Source: an uncultured Lacinutrix sp.
GTDB lineage: Bacteria > Bacteroidota > Bacteroidia > Flavobacteriales > Flavobacteriaceae
Assembly (NCBI RefSeq): GCF_947500325.1
Contig: NZ_CANMRQ010000001.1
Coordinates: forward strand, 498,001 to 562,000
Direction of reading: 5' to 3'
Length of the DNA stretch: 64,000 nt
Program-made: the position numbers and the translations under genes
Shown here: positions 26,352 through 35,857 of the stretch, piece after piece
How the letters are laid out: each line of letters opens with the position of its first letter
How positions within the stretch are numbered: position 1 is the stretch's first letter
Notes under the pieces: model-generated
What the model was told of the DNA's origin: nothing
Databases searched by the model: none
Seen by the model: only the letters and a program-made list of their open reading frames with translations

Positions 26352-26768
26352 TTATTGACCAATTTTAACGACTTCGTTTTGTTTTGGATCTAATTTTTTG
26401 ACGTTTATAATTTCTTTTATTTCAACTCTATATGGCCAACCTTCCTCTGCTTCAGGTTTTGGTATTATTTTACCTCTTATTTCTGCCATGATACCATCTG
26501 TAGATTCTTTTCTATGCGATGCTCCCATTTTATATAATTCTTGCATTTTGTCATCTATAACAACACCATAAACAGAATTTCCTACTTGTAATACAGCTGC
26601 ATCAGCAAAATAAATGAATTCGCCTTTCAATAAGGTTAATCCGTCGCTTTGTTTTTCAGTTTTTTCAGGGCCATCTGCACCAATAGTTGTTGTTTCGGAC
26701 TTCGTTTCATTTTTACAGCTTGTAAAAACAAAAACACATAAAAGTAATATTAAAATATGCTTCATCAT
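26352..26768 (-). CDS. Small lipoprotein of unknown function in the suf locus
   Basis: This 138-residue lipoprotein has its lipobox at FTSCKN (Cys near residue 18). After a charged linker it carries a compact domain (GEFIYFADAAVLQVGN through RGKIIPKPEAEEGWPYRVEIKEI), probably an OB-like beta fold as in some NlpE-type lipoproteins. That comparison is tentative. Its start overlaps the upstream MBL gene stop by one base (TAATG), so the two are co-translated. Its presence between sufB and sufC is unexplained. Confidence 0.7.
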   Translation of the reverse strand: MMKHILILLLCVFVFTSCKNETKSETTTIGADGPEKTEKQSDGLTLLKGEFIYFADAAVLQVGNSVYGVVIDDKMQELYKMGASHRKESTDGIMAEIRGKIIPKPEAEEGWPYRVEIKEIINVKKLDPKQNEVVKIGQ

Positions 26769-27646
26769 TATTTTAAGAATTTAGGATATTTAGGTAATTT
26801 ATTAAAATCTTCTACAGAATGTTGAATGTAAACTTTTGCATTGGTTTCTTTAGCAAAGGCTTCAAAAGCATCCATACTTTTTAATGTTTGATCTACATTA
26901 AAGTTGAAACTAGGTACACCACGATTGTCTCTATTTTCTTGTAAATGATATAAATCTCCAGTAAGTAAAATAGAACCAGCTTCAGCTAAATTTAAATATA
27001 ATACTTGATGACCAGGTGTATGTCCTGGCATAGATTTTATAATCACTGTGCCATCGCCAAAAACATCATGATCACCATTAAGCTTTTTTACTTTTGTTAA
27101 TGTCGCTATTGGAGGATAATTGTCTCCTTTTTTTTGTTCATCACTAGTGATAAAATTATATTCACTTTCTTGAACTAACCATGTTGCCTCTGAAAATTTT
27201 GAAGCAGATCCAGTGTGATCAAAATGAGAGTGTGATAATGCTATGTAATTAAAATCTTTTGGTGTTAAATTCAAAGCTTTTAATTGAGAGACTATTGAAT
27301 CTTTTCTAGATACTGTAAAAGCGCCATTTGGAGTGGTAAATGGTTCTTGCCCAACTAAGCCTTCTGCTAAACCTGCATCCCAAAGTAAACGGCCATTAGG
27401 GTGCTCAACAATGTAAAAGGCATCTGCAAAAGTTTTCGATTGTCCTTTAAAGGCATCGTCTTGCGCAAAAATCTCTAGTTTATTTACTAATACATTACCG
27501 CCATCTAAAGTATATAGTTTTACTTCAGTTTTTTTAAGTTCAGCTTCTTCTTGTGCTGCATTATAACCATCTTCTACTCCCTTTTTAAAATCTTTACAAG
27601 ATATGAAGCTAATGATAAGTATTAATAACAGAATTACTTTTTTCAT
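26768..27646 (-). CDS. MBL-fold metallo-hydrolase lipoprotein (AHL-lactonase-like)
   Basis: This 292-residue protein starts at ATG 27646; a longer TTG start would overlap sufB. It has a lipoprotein signal (SFISCKD, Cys near 17). The metal site HSHFDH follows LSH around residue 140, with SMPGHTPGHQ and LLTGDLYH later, all characteristic of the metallo-beta-lactamase superfamily. The layout resembles N-acyl homoserine lactonase-type enzymes, but a thiol-ester or persulfide-related hydrolase is as possible. It lies 11 bp after sufB and is coupled to the following lipoprotein. Confidence 0.8.
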   Translation of the reverse strand: MKKVILLLILIISFISCKDFKKGVEDGYNAAQEEAELKKTEVKLYTLDGGNVLVNKLEIFAQDDAFKGQSKTFADAFYIVEHPNGRLLWDAGLAEGLVGQEPFTTPNGAFTVSRKDSIVSQLKALNLTPKDFNYIALSHSHFDHTGSASKFSEATWLVQESEYNFITSDEQKKGDNYPPIATLTKVKKLNGDHDVFGDGTVIIKSMPGHTPGHQVLYLNLAEAGSILLTGDLYHLQENRDNRGVPSFNFNVDQTLKSMDAFEAFAKETNAKVYIQHSVEDFNKLPKYPKFLK

Positions 27647-27656
27647 AACGATTAAT

Positions 27657-29105
27657 TTATCCAACAGAGCCTTCAAGACTAATTTCTAAAAGTTTTTGTG
27701 CTTCAACAGCAAATTCCATTGGTAATTTATTTAATACTTCTTTACTAAAACCGTTTACAATTAAAGCAATAGCCTTTTCTGTGTCAATACCACGTTGGTT
27801 ACAATAGAAAATTTGATCTTCACCAATTTTACTAGTAGTAGCTTCGTGCTCTATCATAGCCGTTTTATTCTTTGCTTCTATGTATGGAAATGTATGTGCA
27901 CCACATTCATTGCCCATTAGTAAACTATCGCATTGTGAGAAATTACGAGCATTGTCTGCACGAGAACTTACTTGTACTAATCCACGATATGAATTTTGAG
28001 ATTTTCCTGCAGAAATTCCTTTAGAAATAATAGTCGATTTGGTGTTTTTACCCAAATGAATCATTTTAGTTCCAGTATCTGCTTGTTGGTAATTGTTTGT
28101 TACTGCTATAGAGTAGAATTCTCCTACAGAGTTATCTCCTTTTAATATACAAGAAGGATATTTCCATGTTACAGCACTTCCAGTTTCTACTTGTGTCCAT
28201 GAGATTTTTGCGTTTTTCTCACATAAGCCTCTTTTGGTTACAAAATTGAATACACCACCTTTTCCTTCAGCATTACCTGGATACCAATTTTGTACAGTAG
28301 AATATTTTATTTCTGCATCATCTAAAGCAATAAGCTCCACTACAGCAGCATGTAATTGGTTCTCATCACGACTTGGTGCAGTACAACCTTCTAGGTATGA
28401 TACATAACTACCTTCGTCTGCAATAACTAGCGTTCTTTCAAACTGCCCTGTTCCTGCTTGGTTTATTCTAAAATAAGTTGATAGCTCCATTGGGCAACGT
28501 ACTCCTTTTGGAATATAACAGAATGATCCATCACTAAACACTGCAGAGTTAAGTGCAGCATAAAAATTGTCTTTAGTTGGAACAACTGTACCAATATATT
28601 TTTTTACAAGTTCTGGATGCTCTTTTATAGCTTCAGAAATACTCATAAAAATTATTCCCTTTTCTCCTAATGTCTTTTTAAAAGTAGTTGCAACAGAAAC
28701 AGAATCTACTACAACATCCATAGCGACATTGGCTAATTTTTTTTGCTCATCAATAGAAATTCCTAATTTTTCAAACGTAGCTAAAAGTTCAGGATCTACT
28801 TCGTCTAAACTATCATATTTTGGTTTGCTATTAGGTGCAGAATAATATGATATAGCTTGAAAATCTGGTTTTTCATAATTAACATTTGCCCATTCAGGCT
28901 CTTCCATCGCTTTCCAAACTTTAAAGGCTTCTAGTCTCCATTCTGTCATCCATTCTGGTTCTTCCTTTTTCTTAGAAATTGCGCGTACAATATCTTCATT
29001 TAAGCCAACAGGAAAAGTTTCAGAGTCTATGTCTGTATAAAAACCATATTCGTACTCTTTGGTTTTAAGCTCTTCTCTTAAATCGTCTTCTGTATATTTA
29101 CTCAT
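27657..29105 (-). CDS. sufB: Fe-S cluster assembly protein SufB
   Basis: This 482-residue scaffold protein shows the SufB signatures [55 protein letters not shown] and a late [16 protein letters not shown]. It is the main cluster-building subunit of SufBC2D. It follows the SufA-type gene by 12 bp. Length and sequence are typical. Confidence 0.97.
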
Positions 29106-29577: not shown

Positions 29578-30645
29578 TTAATTCTGAAAGTCTGGATTGG
29601 TAAGAAAAGATGGGTCAGATAGAGACAGTAAAAAAGCTTTTAAATCTGCTTTATCTTGATCTGAAAGTTGAACGCCGCCTTGATCAACTTTTTTCATTAA
29701 AGGGTCTATAGTTGAAGAGTTTTGAAGACCTTCACTATAAAAATCAATAACTTCATCTAATGTGCTAAAACGACCATCATGCATATATGGAGCTGTATAT
29801 GCTAAATTTCTAAGTGATGGACTTTTAAATTTTCCATTGTCATTTGGATCACCAGTTACAGCTCCCAAACCAAGATCTGAGAATGTTGAATCTAAGCCAT
29901 TATTATGAAAAATATTATCAGTCCATAAAGGATTATTTGGATTTCCATGACAGTGAAAACAATCTCCTTTTGCCTCGTCTAAAAACACATTAAGACCATT
30001 TTGTTCTTGAGGTGTAAGAGTTGCTAATCCTTGATCTGCTCTATCAAATTTTGAGTTAGCAGAAATTAAAGTGCGTTCAAATTGGGCAATAGCTTTTGCT
30101 GTAAGTTCTTTTGTAATTGTAGTAGTTTTGAATGCTTTGCGAAATAACTCTGGATATTCAGGGTGTGTTTGTAATTTGTTTACAACATCATCCCAGTTAC
30201 TATTCATTTCAATAGTGTTTTGCACTGGTTCTAATGCTTGTCTTTCTAAACTTAATTCTTTGCCATCCCAAGCAAAACGCTCACCATAATTCCATGCTAA
30301 ATTAAATAAAGGCATGGAGTTTCGGTTTCCAAAAACACCGTTTATTCCATCACTAGTTGGGGTATTATCTGTAAATGCATTTTGAGGACTATGGCAATTT
30401 GCACATGACATAGTTTCATCTCCAGATAAAATAGGGTCGAAAAACAATTTCTTTCCTAAAGCTACTCCTTCTATAGTTTGAGGGTTATTATTTGGTATAA
30501 CTGGAGCAATAATATTTTGTTCGAAAATTGCAGGTATTTCTAATGAGTTTGGTGTTGGTTCATATACTTCCGTATCTGGAGTGTCATCTTTTGAACAAGA
30601 AGATACAGAGACTATGAGAAGTAAGTATATGAACCAATTTTTCAT
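29578..30645 (-). CDS. Di-heme cytochrome c peroxidase / MbnH-like (MauG superfamily)
   Basis: This 355-residue lipoprotein (VSSCSKD, Cys17) has two CxxCH heme sites: CANCH at 81-85 and CFHCH at 229-233. Between them lies a CCP/MauG-type core (AYTAPYMHDGRFSTLDEV later on). MauG-superfamily enzymes use the hemes to oxidise partner proteins or peroxide. The immediately upstream gene encodes an MbnP-like protein, and MbnH enzymes make kynurenine from a Trp in MbnP to create a copper site. That pairing makes MbnH a better guess than a plain peroxidase. It is the last gene of the set. Confidence 0.85.
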   Translation of the reverse strand: MKNWFIYLLLIVSVSSCSKDDTPDTEVYEPTPNSLEIPAIFEQNIIAPVIPNNNPQTIEGVALGKKLFFDPILSGDETMSCANCHSPQNAFTDNTPTSDGINGVFGNRNSMPLFNLAWNYGERFAWDGKELSLERQALEPVQNTIEMNSNWDDVVNKLQTHPEYPELFRKAFKTTTITKELTAKAIAQFERTLISANSKFDRADQGLATLTPQEQNGLNVFLDEAKGDCFHCHGNPNNPLWTDNIFHNNGLDSTFSDLGLGAVTGDPNDNGKFKSPSLRNLAYTAPYMHDGRFSTLDEVIDFYSEGLQNSSTIDPLMKKVDQGGVQLSDQDKADLKAFLLSLSDPSFLTNPDFQN

Positions 30646-30648
30646 TAA

Positions 30649-31431
30649 TTATTGTGTTACGGTACCTAAGCCAAATACATTTTGTCCATTTTGATTCATT
30701 AACAATTGGGCATTAGCGTTTGGCATTAAAACTTGATTTAAGACATTTAAGTCCCATGTGTTAGGGTTTTTAAACCATTCAGCAACATTCATTTTAACCT
30801 CAATAGTTATATCATCGCTTATTGTCATTGCTCCTAAATCGACAGTAATAAATGTAGGCTGATCTGGGAATACAGGAGGCATACCTGCATTAACAGCTCT
30901 AATGTGGTGGTAATTGAAAGGAGCGTCTGTGACAGTACTATTAGTATATTTTCCGTCAAATTGCATATAGTGATATCCACCACCTAATGCGGCCATAGGG
31001 ACATTAAAAGAAGCTGAATTTAAATCTGTATAAGCACCATCAATATTATCTTCATGTTTTAATCCGTAAGTAAATGATACACTTGTGTAAGCTCCGGTTG
31101 GAATTTTCATTTCTGGATTATAATTTAAATCATCATTAGTAACGTCTACTAACTTATAACCTTCAATAGTTGTACTTTCTCCATTAGCTTTTGTGAAAGT
31201 AACATCAGAAATGATATATCGCAACCTTGTCATTGTAATCATTTCACCATTAGCATTAGTATACTGGGTGTTTTCAAAATCTGAACCAGCTATTGCTGTA
31301 TCATCCCAGTTATGAGTGAAGTTAAAACTTGTTTTAGCTTCTGTTTTTGTTTTTAAATTGTCATCATTATCATCACTACAAGAGGTAAATGTAATAGCTG
31401 AAATTATTAAAAGGGCAAAAATCTTTTTCAT
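30649..31431 (-). CDS. MbnP family copper-binding-type lipoprotein
   Basis: This 260-residue lipoprotein (TFTSCSDD, Cys18) has the MbnP pattern: FNFTHNWDDTAIA at the start, LRYIISDVTFTK, GAYTSVSFTYGL, then GYHYMQFDGKY and PFNYHHIRAVNAG with His residues, and a tail with EWFKNPNTWDLN. MbnP proteins bind copper after their MauG-type partner converts a Trp to kynurenine. The partner-like gene starts 3 bp downstream. Trp residues in the NTW/EW tail are candidates but were not mapped to the modified one. Confidence 0.78.
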   Translation of the reverse strand: MKKIFALLIISAITFTSCSDDNDDNLKTKTEAKTSFNFTHNWDDTAIAGSDFENTQYTNANGEMITMTRLRYIISDVTFTKANGESTTIEGYKLVDVTNDDLNYNPEMKIPTGAYTSVSFTYGLKHEDNIDGAYTDLNSASFNVPMAALGGGYHYMQFDGKYTNSTVTDAPFNYHHIRAVNAGMPPVFPDQPTFITVDLGAMTISDDITIEVKMNVAEWFKNPNTWDLNVLNQVLMPNANAQLLMNQNGQNVFGLGTVTQ

Positions 31432-31434
31432 TTA

Positions 31435-32778
31435 TTATTTAATTTTTATTATTAGTAAATCACTAAAACCTTTGTTTTCGATTAAATCACCATCATTACT
31501 AGTTGCATCACCTACAGCAACTACAGTTTTGTCATTTAGTTCTGTTATACCATATGCAAAATCAATATTAGAACCACCGACAGTTTTTTGCCATTCTAAT
31601 ATTCCATTGCTATCGACTTTTAAAACCCAAGCATCATTTTGCCCTTGGTTAATAGTTAAATCCCCATCTGAGCTTCTAGAGCTTCCAGATAATAGAAAGC
31701 CATTGTCTTGTGTTTTAACTATTGCTCTAGCGACATCGAAACTTGAACCACCGATAGTTTTTTCCCAAAGTAATTCTCCTAATGGAGATATTTTAATAAG
31801 CCATAAATCGGCCGCTCCATTATTATTTGAAATATCGGTGTCACTACTTCTAGTGTCTCCAGCAATAATGTAATTACCATCTCCAGATTTTACAATGCCT
31901 CTAGCTTCGTCTATTTCTGAACCTCCAAAAGATTTTTCCCAAATCAAACTTCCTGTATTAGAAATTTTAATGACCCAAAAATCATAAGAGCCTTTATTGT
32001 TGCTAATGTCTGTATCAGCACTGTCCGATCCGCCAGCAATTATAAAGGCATTGTCATCAGTTTCTACTATACCTTCAGGTGTGTCTGTAAATAATCCACC
32101 AAAAAATTTACTCCATTCTATATCGCCATCTGTATTCAGTTTTATTATCCAATAATCGCCACCTGCATGTCTACTACTGTTTCTAGAGGTGTTACCTTCT
32201 CCTCCAGATGCAGTAACATCTAAAACGCCAGAAATTAAGTAGCCATTATCATTTGTTTGTATTACCGAAATGCCAGAATCTGTACCAGAATAGCCAAAAG
32301 ATTTTTGCCAAGAAATATTTCCAGAAGCATCTAACTTTGCTAACCAATAATCTTCTTGGCCAGCATTAGTACTTACATCTTCGTTACTACTGTAGCTTGA
32401 GCCTAAAATAGCATAACCACCATCTTGTGTTTGTATTATATCTTTGCCACGATCATCTTCACTACCACCATATGTTTTATTCCATTGTAGTTCGCTATCT
32501 GTATCAAATTTTAATAACCAATAGTCAAAACTTTCATCAGTTTTATCTGTAATATCTCCATTGGTACTTTGTGTATAACCTAATACGGCATAACCACCAT
32601 CTAAAGTACTTACAACTGCTTGTGCGCTTTCGTTTTTACTTCCACCATATACTCTAGCAAAATCTAAAATGCCAGTGACAGAATTATTAGTTGGTGTTAT
32701 GGTATCATCATCACTTTTACAACTATTAAAAACAAATAATATAGATGCAATAAATATTAAGACTCTTTGAAAACGCAT
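31435..32778 (-). CDS. Seven-bladed propeller lipoprotein
   Basis: This 447-residue lipoprotein (FNSCKSDD, Cys19) is built of seven repeats of about 50-60 residues, each with a GGS-type turn, an IVxTxDxGYxIxG strand and a W-x-x-K-x strand (for example GGSEIDEARGIVKSGDGNYI, then WVIKISNTGSLIWEKS). Seven repeats imply a closed seven-bladed beta-propeller. No enzyme motif is seen, so a binding or scaffolding role is likely. It starts 10 bp after the preceding choice-of-anchor gene and ends 3 bp before the MbnP gene. Confidence 0.78.
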   Translation of the reverse strand: MRFQRVLIFIASILFVFNSCKSDDDTITPTNNSVTGILDFARVYGGSKNESAQAVVSTLDGGYAVLGYTQSTNGDITDKTDESFDYWLLKFDTDSELQWNKTYGGSEDDRGKDIIQTQDGGYAILGSSYSSNEDVSTNAGQEDYWLAKLDASGNISWQKSFGYSGTDSGISVIQTNDNGYLISGVLDVTASGGEGNTSRNSSRHAGGDYWIIKLNTDGDIEWSKFFGGLFTDTPEGIVETDDNAFIIAGGSDSADTDISNNKGSYDFWVIKISNTGSLIWEKSFGGSEIDEARGIVKSGDGNYIIAGDTRSSDTDISNNNGAADLWLIKISPLGELLWEKTIGGSSFDVARAIVKTQDNGFLLSGSSRSSDGDLTINQGQNDAWVLKVDSNGILEWQKTVGGSNIDFAYGITELNDKTVVAVGDATSNDGDLIENKGFSDLLIIKIK

Positions 32779-32788
32779 TGTTTTTTAT

Positions 32789-34264
32789 TTATGGTTGGCT
32801 TTTCTTGATAATAAATAAACCTCTATCAATATCGCTAATAACTATGTTGCCACTAGCGAAATAAGGATATACATTCCATGCGCCATTAAAATTAGCATTA
32901 TTATCATCTGGGTAAGTATCAAAGAAACCAACTTCTGTCATTGAATTGCTTCCTATGTTCGATATGTCTATCATACGCACACCAGCTCTATAATTGGCTT
33001 GAAAATACGTGTTGTTATGTATATAGCCATTATGATCTATTGCAGGAGTATTACCTGTATATTCCATATGAAATGTTGGATTGTCTAAATCTGTAAAATC
33101 GAAAATTAATGCTCTAGTATTACCACCAAAATTTTGTTCATCTAATTCATCTCCAAGTATAAAGTATTTCATATCACCAGTAAACCAGCCTTGGTGTGTA
33201 TATCCAATGTTATTATAACTAATAGTTGAAATTCCTACTGGATTTGCTTTGTCAGTAATATCAACAATCACAACTTCATTTTCATTACTCCCAATTAAAA
33301 TTTCTTTTCCTGTATAGTCAGAATCTGGACCGTTATATGTTACCACTTGCGCATCATGAGAGTATCCTCCATCTGCATAACCACCTGCAGCAACAGGATT
33401 TGTTGGGTTTTGTATATTAACAAAATGTGGTCCACCATTAAAAGTAGGTGTTCCATTTAACCTTGTTCCAACGCCATAGGCATAACCACTGTCTTCATTA
33501 ATAACAATGTTATGAGCACGACCAAAGCCTGTGTAACGTGCATCAGCAGTAAAAGTTTCAGGTGCATTAGTAACGTTTCTTAATCTAGTTAAATCAAATA
33601 CTTGCATACCGTGATTAGAAGCTTCACTAACAATAAATGCATGATTATTATATACTTTTATATCTCTCCAACTACTATTTACAGTGGCAGTTGGAAGTAT
33701 TCCAACAACAACTAATTGTGAGGTGTTTGTTATATCAACAAAAACTGAGGCAGAAGAAGTTCCTACCAAAGCATATTCTCTTCCAGAGACTGGATCTGTC
33801 CATCCCCAGGAATCATTACCACTACCTGCAGCTCCCATTTCGGCAACTGAAAGTGTTGCCATTAGATCATAATCGTTGCAAGGAAAATTTCCTGCCATGC
33901 CATTTTCACAAGGAAATAATGGTTGTGGATTTCCTTCACAGATATCGCCAATACCATCAGAATTTAAATCTAATTGATCTGGATTGGCCTGATTTGGACA
34001 GTTGTCAATATTATCCATAACTCCATCTCCATCACGATCATCACAGACATCACCAATACCATTATCATTAGAATCTAATTGATCAGGGTTACTTGCCTCA
34101 GGACAGTTGTCTGAAATGTCTGCAACACCATCATTATCTTGATCTGGAAATGCGGTTAATGTAGAATTATCATCATCGTTAGAGCAGCTAATAGATACTG
34201 TTATTAAAAAGAATCCAAGACCAAAAAGGGTAGCAATTTTAAAAATGTTTTTTAATTTTTTCAT
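32789..34264 (-). CDS. Choice-of-anchor B family lipoprotein with thrombospondin-3 repeats
   Basis: This 491-residue lipoprotein starts at ATG 34264; the frame's longer start is a TTG. The lipobox is near ISCSND. Two thrombospondin type-3 calcium-binding repeats (DQDNDGVADISDNCP and DRDGDGVMDNIDNCP) precede a LVIVD-type propeller typical of choice-of-anchor B proteins (WRDIKVYNNHAFIVSE, SHDAQVVTYNGPDSDYTGKE, DHNGYIHNNTYFQANYRAG). It lacks the T9SS tail that its paralogue carries, so it is lipid-anchored. It is the second gene of the five-gene set. Confidence 0.85.
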   Translation of the reverse strand: MKKLKNIFKIATLFGLGFFLITVSISCSNDDDNSTLTAFPDQDNDGVADISDNCPEASNPDQLDSNDNGIGDVCDDRDGDGVMDNIDNCPNQANPDQLDLNSDGIGDICEGNPQPLFPCENGMAGNFPCNDYDLMATLSVAEMGAAGSGNDSWGWTDPVSGREYALVGTSSASVFVDITNTSQLVVVGILPTATVNSSWRDIKVYNNHAFIVSEASNHGMQVFDLTRLRNVTNAPETFTADARYTGFGRAHNIVINEDSGYAYGVGTRLNGTPTFNGGPHFVNIQNPTNPVAAGGYADGGYSHDAQVVTYNGPDSDYTGKEILIGSNENEVVIVDITDKANPVGISTISYNNIGYTHQGWFTGDMKYFILGDELDEQNFGGNTRALIFDFTDLDNPTFHMEYTGNTPAIDHNGYIHNNTYFQANYRAGVRMIDISNIGSNSMTEVGFFDTYPDDNNANFNGAWNVYPYFASGNIVISDIDRGLFIIKKSQP

Positions 34265-34330
34265 TGAATTCAATGTTTTAAGTTTTTTTGTCTATGTATA
34301 ATAGTTAATAGACTAAATTAATAATTCAAT

Positions 34331-35857
34331 TTATTCGATTATTAATTTTTTAGTTACAGCACCATTTATTTTGATTAAATACATGCCAGAACGATAGTTT
34401 TTTACAGGTAAAACGTATTCTTGTTTATTAATATTGTTAGCAGTAAATACATTTTGCCCTAAGATATTATAAATTTCAATAGTATTTACTTTAATATTCT
34501 CTGAAGCTTTTATAGTTGTATTGGATGTCGTTGGGTTTGGTGACAAAGTGAAGCTATTTGAAAATTCAAATGAAGGCGTATCTAATGTATTACTTTTTCT
34601 AACAATAAAAAGTCCTCTTTCAATATCACTTATAATAATATTTCCACTATTGAAATATGGGTATACACTCCAAGCTCCATTAAAACTAGCACTATCACTT
34701 GTAGGGAAAGTATCGAAATAACCTATTTCAGATGCAGAATTGTTTGATGAAATAAGTGTAGGCACATCTAATACTCTCATTCCTGCTCTATAATTTGCTA
34801 AATAAAACTTATCATCTTTTACATATCCATTGTGATCAATAGCAGCTGTTGGGCCTAAATAAGTAGTTGTTAAAGCTGTATTGGTATTAAAGTCTGCATC
34901 AAGGTCTTGGAAATCAAATATTAGTGTTCTTGTGTTATTTCCAAAACTTTGTTCATCTACTTCATCTCCTAAAATAAAATAACGATGATCATCTGTGAAC
35001 CAGCCTTGGTGAGCATATGCAATTTGTGGATAATCAAATTCATTAATTGCAACAACATTAGACTTATCTGTAACATCTAAAATGACTACTCTATCAGAGT
35101 TTCCATTACTACCAATAAAAATTTGTTTTCCTACATGTTCAGTATCTGGACCATTATAAGTTACTACTTGGGCATCATGAGTGTATCCTTTACCAGCATA
35201 GCTGCCAACTATTGTTGGAGATAAAGGTGTGCTTATATCTAAAAAAACAGGTCCGCCACTTGCTGCACCTCCACAACCTACTAAATAAGCTATGCCTTCA
35301 GATTCATTAATTACTATGTTGTGGCAACTTCCTATTGTTATTCCATTATCTCCTTGAAACCTAAGAACATTACCATCATTAGCTGCACTTGTATACGTTA
35401 AATCTGCATTTGGACCGTTTCTTAGAACTGTTAAGTCAAAAATTTGGACTCCATGATCTCCAAGAAGATCTGCTACAATAAAAGCATGATTGTTATAAAC
35501 TTTTACATCTCTCCAAAATGAAGTGTTTCCATTAGCTGTTTCTATTCTTCCTAAAAAGATTGGATTTATTGGATCTGAGACATCTACAAAGGCAGTGCTA
35601 TTTGTCATACCTACAATCGCATATTCTTTTCCGTTTAAAGGATCAGTCCAGCCCCATATATCACTACTTTCTTCATTGCCCAAAGTGGTCGCTAAAACCG
35701 AAACAGGTATATTAGACATTAAATCGTAATCTTTACAAGGGTATATTCCAGCCATATCCATTCCTGCTCCAGAATTAAATTCACATGGAGTTTGAGCAAA
35801 CATAGACGTTTGAAATAATAAGCAAATAATAATTGTAAATGTGTAGTTTTTTAACAT
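34331..35857 (-). CDS. Choice-of-anchor B family protein with T9SS type A sorting domain
   Basis: This 508-residue protein has a Sec signal peptide (ends SMFAQ). Its LVIVD-type propeller is closely related to the previous paralogue (FWRDVKVYNNHAFIVAD, THDAQVVTYNGPDTEHVGKQ, DHNGYVKDDKFYLANYRAG). The last 75 residues are a T9SS type A C-terminal sorting domain (LSPNPTTSNTTIK, EIYNILGQNVF, YRSGMYLIKI), so the protein is exported through the type IX system to the cell surface or medium. It lacks TSP3 repeats. It is the first gene of the set. Confidence 0.9.
   Translation of the reverse strand: MLKNYTFTIIICLLFQTSMFAQTPCEFNSGAGMDMAGIYPCKDYDLMSNIPVSVLATTLGNEESSDIWGWTDPLNGKEYAIVGMTNSTAFVDVSDPINPIFLGRIETANGNTSFWRDVKVYNNHAFIVADLLGDHGVQIFDLTVLRNGPNADLTYTSAANDGNVLRFQGDNGITIGSCHNIVINESEGIAYLVGCGGAASGGPVFLDISTPLSPTIVGSYAGKGYTHDAQVVTYNGPDTEHVGKQIFIGSNGNSDRVVILDVTDKSNVVAINEFDYPQIAYAHQGWFTDDHRYFILGDEVDEQSFGNNTRTLIFDFQDLDADFNTNTALTTTYLGPTAAIDHNGYVKDDKFYLANYRAGMRVLDVPTLISSNNSASEIGYFDTFPTSDSASFNGAWSVYPYFNSGNIIISDIERGLFIVRKSNTLDTPSFEFSNSFTLSPNPTTSNTTIKASENIKVNTIEIYNILGQNVFTANNINKQEYVLPVKNYRSGMYLIKINGAVTKKLIIE

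Follow-up and report, generated by a model that had tools for sequence, protein, structure and literature searches.

Why would a gene pair of the MbnP/MbnH families lie packed against genes for surface propeller proteins? This arrangement was found at 29578–35857 on the minus strand of a 64,000-nucleotide stretch (hereafter the window) of an uncultured Lacinutrix sp. of the Flavobacteriaceae (contig NZ_CANMRQ010000001.1, positions 498,001 to 562,000). Five genes, all in one orientation, encoded in reading order two choice-of-anchor B proteins (AB1 and AB2), a repeat/propeller lipoprotein (Prop), an MbnP-family lipoprotein of a divergent type (designated type A) and a di-heme lipoprotein of the cytochrome c peroxidase (CCP)/MauG family (MbnH; Table 1). 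Their identities and place had been given in a preliminary description of this DNA and were borne out by family-profile scores and gene calls. AB and Prop form the core of the set, and a di-heme MauG/MbnH-type peroxidase and a type A MbnP are added directly downstream. We propose that the whole is a conserved Flavobacteriaceae cell-surface redox/metal module working as set out below, a tentative reading to which we give a probability of about 0.45.

To survey gene neighbourhoods, as the preliminary description had suggested, a family sample of 149 Flavobacteriaceae genomes, nearly one per genus, was searched with family profiles. PF20243 (MbnP) gave 79 matches in 71 genomes, and TIGR04312 (AB) scored above its cut-off in 76. 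An AB match lay within 8 kb of 48 of the 79 MbnP matches, giving linkage in 48 of the 71 genomes, the nearest at a distance of 1.4–2.5 kb, and AB was upstream and on the same strand in 48/48. Prop sat between AB and MbnP in 47/47 linked loci (all except the window). With 48 of 79 matches linked in one order and on one strand, the gene order is non-random; the neighbourhood was thus conserved, where its absence had been named as counting against the idea. This tight, conserved gene set also supported the suggested coupling of an MbnP/MbnH-family pair to surface propellers. The AB copy number at linked loci ranged from one to five. L074 carried five tandem copies, and in L147 AB was found within a ~1030-aa protein.

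Searching genome contigs with sequence patterns of type A MbnP gave 459 relatives, and the best 80 of them (from Winogradskyella, Bizionia, Algibacter, Flavivirga, Lacinutrix and others) were taken as further loci. Among these best 80 of 459, Prop preceded MbnP in 80/80, AB or a piece of it was present in 79/80 and MbnH in 78/80, and the exceptions (those lacking MbnH being L229 and L239) ended at or near contig edges. Some genomes occurred in both locus sets (e.g. L087 is L165), and the 125 MbnP rows comprised 120 distinct sequences. Rows were left out for AB fragments shorter than 350 aa and MbnH shorter than 280 aa; MbnP was truncated in L108, and the L063 MbnP row was absent through the choice of open reading frame (ORF), although PF20243 matched there (156.6 bits). 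In a phylum sample of 247 genomes the AB and MbnP families were both widespread. Among the matches listed for that sample, checked by eye, AB and MbnP lay within 8 kb of each other only in G000, G125 and G234, all of them Flavobacteriaceae; the next-closest pairs among the matches listed were ~16 kb (G384) and ~23 kb (G373) apart. Among the papers listed by literature searches, none described this gene module and none mentioned “choice-of-anchor B”, in agreement with the earlier remark that the system was not obviously described. The gene set is real, is conserved widely and has apparently gone undescribed.

The genes were also closely spaced. Gaps in the window, in reading order, were 66, 10, 3 and 3 bp (taking the ATG at 34264 as the AB2 start), so that the tight packing claimed earlier held for the last three gaps and not for the first. 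In relatives, median gaps were 7 bp for AB–Prop (126 pairs), 2 bp for Prop–MbnP (126) and 5 bp for MbnP–MbnH (123), over 127 loci of which a few were one genome taken twice.

On an MbnH tree (quick method, midpoint root, with Shimodaira–Hasegawa-like approximate likelihood ratio test support only), type A enzymes formed a single clade (support 100), separate from the 34 remaining rows. L062–L065 were AB–Prop loci whose MbnH grouped with the canonical type and not with type A, and canonical-type MbnP/MbnH pairs elsewhere had quite different neighbour genes. The presence of two distant MbnP/MbnH lineages behind AB–Prop points to a working link rather than to inherited order alone. At two of the canonical-type pairs elsewhere (L131:5444–8785 and L125:2326–5661), a small protein bearing a C-x-G-K-C-like motif (CNGKC) is encoded upstream and a ~330-aa CxxCGC protein, possibly an outer-membrane barrel, downstream; each looks like a copper locus. 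A third MbnP type was found at L113:2973–7910, after a 661-aa TonB-dependent-receptor-like protein and a 305-aa lipoprotein.

The window MbnP model (mean pLDDT 84.6) was aligned with the Methylosinus MbnP structure 7L6G over 208 residues at Z 16.2, the next unrelated entry reaching Z 4.9. PDB sequence searches with profiles of AB and of type A MbnP gave no matches at E 0.1 and 10, and a PDB search with the single window MbnP sequence gave no MbnP match. When canonical flavobacterial MbnPs were compared with 7L6G, their M-x-W-x-W motif met GMAWNW and their H-M-G-S motif met HVGS; M, W and W of the former were kept in 33/33 canonical-type relatives. The first Trp of this WxW is reportedly converted to kynurenine, with one His and one Met as the copper ligands. 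In the window MbnP the motif was A-S-F-N-V, with Ala140, Phe142 and Val144 in place of M, W and W, and His175 was kept. Kynurenine at the canonical Trp, as put forward in the preliminary description, was thus ruled out for the window protein by Phe142; an unmodified Trp, which had been named there as an argument against it, was effectively what was found, because the canonical place has no Trp.

This change was not confined to the window. Over the 45 type A rows of the family-profile set the Met was lost, the second Trp was Val in 36 and Trp in 8 (one row was truncated), and residue 142 was Trp in 38 and Phe in six, the window among the six. Residue 142 was Phe in 44 and Trp in 36 of the best 80 of 459 type A loci, and Phe in 49 and Trp in 73 over 122 MbnP/MbnH pairs. 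The Phe/Trp state changed four times on the MbnH tree, at least three of the changes being forced by well supported branches. Other residues were constant within type A in the family-profile set: H154, H175, W226 and M236 (44/44), W42 (42/44) and W219 (41/44); Met156 was also conserved. W226 and W219 were not found at those places in canonical MbnP. The profile TIGR04052 (MbnP_like_WxW) gave no match at E 0.01 for the window MbnP or for that of L078, and matched the canonical-type proteins of L125, L113 and L062 at 57, 59 and 48 bits, below its cut-off of 140.

The heme enzyme was intact. The window MbnH contained two heme-binding motifs (C81xxC84-H85 and C229xxC232-H233), W126 and Y303, and its closest PDB relative was 6e1c (“Di-heme enzyme”, E 6e-51). 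Both CxxCH motifs, W126 and Y303 were invariant in 122/122 type A MbnH. Y303 aligned with the IYSEG of 6e1c, and we take it to be the MauG-like axial Tyr position of the second heme; classical CCPs carry a Met at the axial position where MauG-like enzymes have the Tyr. The window protein scored 258.1 bits against TIGR04039 (MbnH), under the cut-off of 362.85, which does not separate the types, because canonical flavobacterial relatives also fell short (228.1 and 200). Two residues near the inter-heme Trp126 split the sets: Arg123 and Leu131 occurred in 48/49 and 47/49 enzymes paired with a Phe142 MbnP versus 7/73 and 5/73 paired with a Trp142 MbnP, a split that may reflect co-adaptation or ancestry only. 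Compared with two relatives, the ratio of nonsynonymous to synonymous substitutions (dN/dS) was 0.08–0.17 for all five genes, with dS of 1–2 and synonymous sites near saturation. Decay of the pair after Trp loss was ruled out by these ratios, read with that saturation in mind, and by the intact heme motifs. With the canonical Trp lost and the heme enzyme intact, MbnH must have a different target, as seems probable, or a different role. The MbnP/MbnH pair is known for a kynurenine that holds copper; here a large lineage has kept the enzyme and lost the target more than once, and type A thereby makes the targets of MbnH-type MauG-like enzymes directly testable.

The AF2 model of AB2 (residues 112–491, mean pLDDT 95) had seven four-stranded blades. 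On successive blades the first strand had W199, H251, H303, H357, H411 and W463 at its start, and the first blade carried W155. The four His, one per successive blade, were invariant in 86/86 AB sequences of the family, with or without MbnP/MbnH. They, and likewise R200, K203, D304 and E373, were also present in AB proteins from other families in the class and phylum (23/23 each); these proteins came from 18 of 20 loci, L244 and L245 being lost through ORF choice. In a Foldseek search with the AB model, the phosphotriesterase of Sphingobium sp. TCM1 (5HRM and 5IOJ) ranked first and second at E 3e-10. In the VIA list it gave the longest alignment (333 residues) at Z 30.4, tied with the WD40 propellers (to 31.2) that filled the list. 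Among the rows listed there was no carotenoid oxygenase, nitrous oxide reductase or SBP56 structure, an absence that carries no weight. An AB profile search against it was non-significant (E 0.15 to 0.27); the one His motif brought into register, that of H251, aligned with a 5ioj His which we take to be a metal ligand. By the title of its paper, the phosphotriesterase is a propeller of seven blades whose metal centre is binuclear. Its likeness to AB lies in the top fold matches, and the difference in the tie with WD40 proteins and in the single aligned His motif. From its conservation and its place in the model, the four-His set of AB is probably a metal site, and it points to a function to seek in the choice-of-anchor B propellers, which are an unstudied family.

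Prop had no Pfam match, and its top NCBIfam match (NF047494, 56 bits) was far below the cut-off of 400. Compared with PDB sequences, it matched the propeller of the cyclophane-forming alkylase CylK (E 1.4e-24), probably through shared repeats only.

All four window lipoproteins had acidic stretches after the lipidated Cys (C-SDDND in MbnP, C-SKDDT in MbnH, C-KSDDD in Prop and C-SNDDD in AB2). These resemble the Bacteroidetes surface-export signal, examples of which are C-X-K-(D/E)2 and SDDFE (PMC5080379). With these starts, and with AB1 carrying the tail of a protein that leaves by the type IX secretion system (T9SS), the module probably acts at the outer face of the cell.

We suggest the following mechanism. 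The AB propeller channel would hold a metal in a ring of four His, each contributed by one of four successive blades. Type A MbnP would be a surface metal-binding protein, probably for copper, that lacks the kynurenine site and has His154, Met156, His175 and Met236 as candidate ligands. MbnH, using peroxide, would oxidise a non-canonical residue, most simply Trp226 or Trp219 of MbnP, and this oxidation would help MbnP to bind metal or hand it over beside AB. A copper role of the module is plausible.

The pair resembled MbnP/MbnH of Methylosinus trichosporium (7L6G, 6E1C) in the two families, the adjacent genes, the MbnP fold and the di-heme motifs, and differed in the A-S-F-N-V motif, the propeller neighbours and the export-like lipoprotein starts; no methanobactin genes were among the five of the window. 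In methanotrophs, according to PMC3912023, the surface copper protein CorA/MopE* is encoded beside a gene for a di-heme MauG-like cytochrome (CorB) and has a kynurenine next to a Cu(I) bound through two His. The window resembles it in having the gene for a putative surface copper protein next to a MauG-like gene, and differs in that its MbnP lacks the Trp. The product of mtoX, the copper methanethiol oxidase (SBP56), is described in PMC5739008 as a seven-bladed copper propeller oxidase with four conserved His, and its gene shares an operon with those of SCO1/SenC and mauG; SELENBP1 (PMC10362175) is a second precedent. A propeller with conserved His and Trp beside a mauG-like gene is common to the operon of these sources and the window; the window five, however, lack SCO1/SenC and have MbnP instead, and AB belongs to TIGR04312 and not to SBP56. 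In gene arrangement the mtoX–SCO1/SenC–mauG operon is the closest precedent, and by analogy AB would be the metalloenzyme or metal-binding part, type A MbnP a metal donor or store and MbnH a peroxide-driven modifier.

Other explanations were weighed against this one. MbnH could simply be a peroxidase or electron-transfer protein at the surface that clears peroxide; MbnP would then be its structural or metal partner, and no residue would be modified. The CCP/MauG family includes classical peroxidases, and the Trp target has been lost repeatedly beside an intact heme enzyme. We consider this unlikely, though deserving serious attention, given the Tyr at position 303 in 122/122 enzymes (where classical CCPs have Met), the best PDB relative being an MbnH, and the continued pairing of MbnP with MbnH. 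The usual copper site of MbnP/MbnH, its kynurenine derived from an MbnP Trp, would agree with the family assignments, the fold match and the first Trp kept in 73/122 type A pairs. It is refuted at the canonical position by the Phe, Val and Ala of the window at W, W and M, and type A gave no match to TIGR04052, whereas three canonical relatives did so, below its cut-off; we regard it as highly improbable. MbnH might instead mature AB or Prop by oxidising a conserved Trp, as proposed for mtoX/mauG, with MbnP delivering copper. The presence of mauG in the mtoX operon (PMC5739008) is a precedent, and W153, W199, W360 and W463 of AB occupied His-like blade positions in 23/23 proteins outside the family. 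The same Trp residues were, however, invariant in 19/19 AB rows without MbnP/MbnH, so that maturation of AB by MbnH is not required in general, and we think this explanation improbable. AB as an obligatory MbnH substrate was disfavoured by the identical invariant residues without MbnH.

The genes might also have no functional link and merely share a stable stretch between thiL-like and suf-like genes. The same flanks, judged by length and strand, recurred around AB–Prop with and without MbnP/MbnH; yet median gaps of 2–7 bp, one order and strand in 48/48 loci and the exchange of one MbnP/MbnH lineage for another behind AB–Prop speak for a link, and mere neighbourhood seems to us improbable. Several observations nevertheless weigh against the proposed module. 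AB–Prop was found without MbnP/MbnH in many genera (of the 44 AB loci lacking a nearby MbnP, 20 were examined and 18 carried Prop), and AB and its invariant residues were unchanged in genomes without the pair (19/19 rows), so the pair is dispensable for AB. The 48 genera share an ancestor and one locus and are therefore not 48 independent events. H154, M156, W226 and other type A residues were equally frequent in the best 80 of 459, where the invariance of the three named is partly by construction, because they lie inside the search patterns. No copper gene (SCO1 or copper ATPase) was among the five, and copper was inferred from family membership alone. By a crude count, at least two acidic residues followed the Cys in 88/122 MbnP, 61/123 Prop, 49/120 MbnH and 22/124 AB2, a mixed result by which surface display may not extend to all members in all relatives. 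A bolder form of the proposed module, in which type A MbnH oxidises a relocated Trp (226 or 219) gained as M-x-W-x-W was lost, MbnP thereby becoming a surface copper donor for AB, and AB being a new four-His metalloenzyme family across Bacteroidota, is doubtful at present.

Table 1. Genes of the five-gene set in the window, in reading order, with profile scores.
Gene	Position	Strand	Product	Profile score (cut-off)
AB1	34331–35857	−	Choice-of-anchor B propeller protein, T9SS type A sorting tail	TIGR04312, 464 bits (100)
AB2	32789–34264	−	Choice-of-anchor B lipoprotein	TIGR04312, 559.5 bits (100)
Prop	31435–32778	−	Repeat/propeller lipoprotein, constant AB partner	
MbnP	30649–31431	−	MbnP-family lipoprotein, divergent type (type A)	PF20243, 98.2 bits (27)
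MbnH	29578–30645	−	Di-heme CCP/MauG-family lipoprotein	PF03150, 195.7 bits, 8.2e-58 (25.6)

The AB1 tail scored 40 bits against TIGR04183 (cut-off 23) and matched Por_Secre_tail at 9.6e-11. AB2 carried calcium-type thrombospondin type 3 (TSP3) repeats (PF02412, 51.6 bits). A scan for sigma-70 type promoters gave no excess over shuffles (39 sites versus 35.9 expected), and the Bacteroidetes motif TTG-N17-23-TAnnTTTG was not found upstream of AB1. A single TATCTTTG was present in the gap separating MbnH from the next gene. On the upstream side of the set, the divergent neighbour was a thiL-like gene (AIR synthase domains). Downstream of MbnH, 130 bp on, were genes recognised by eye from the sequence and presumably SUF iron-sulfur genes. 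Between suf-like genes, at 26352–27676 of the window, a metallo-beta-lactamase-fold lipoprotein and a small NlpE_C-domain lipoprotein were encoded.

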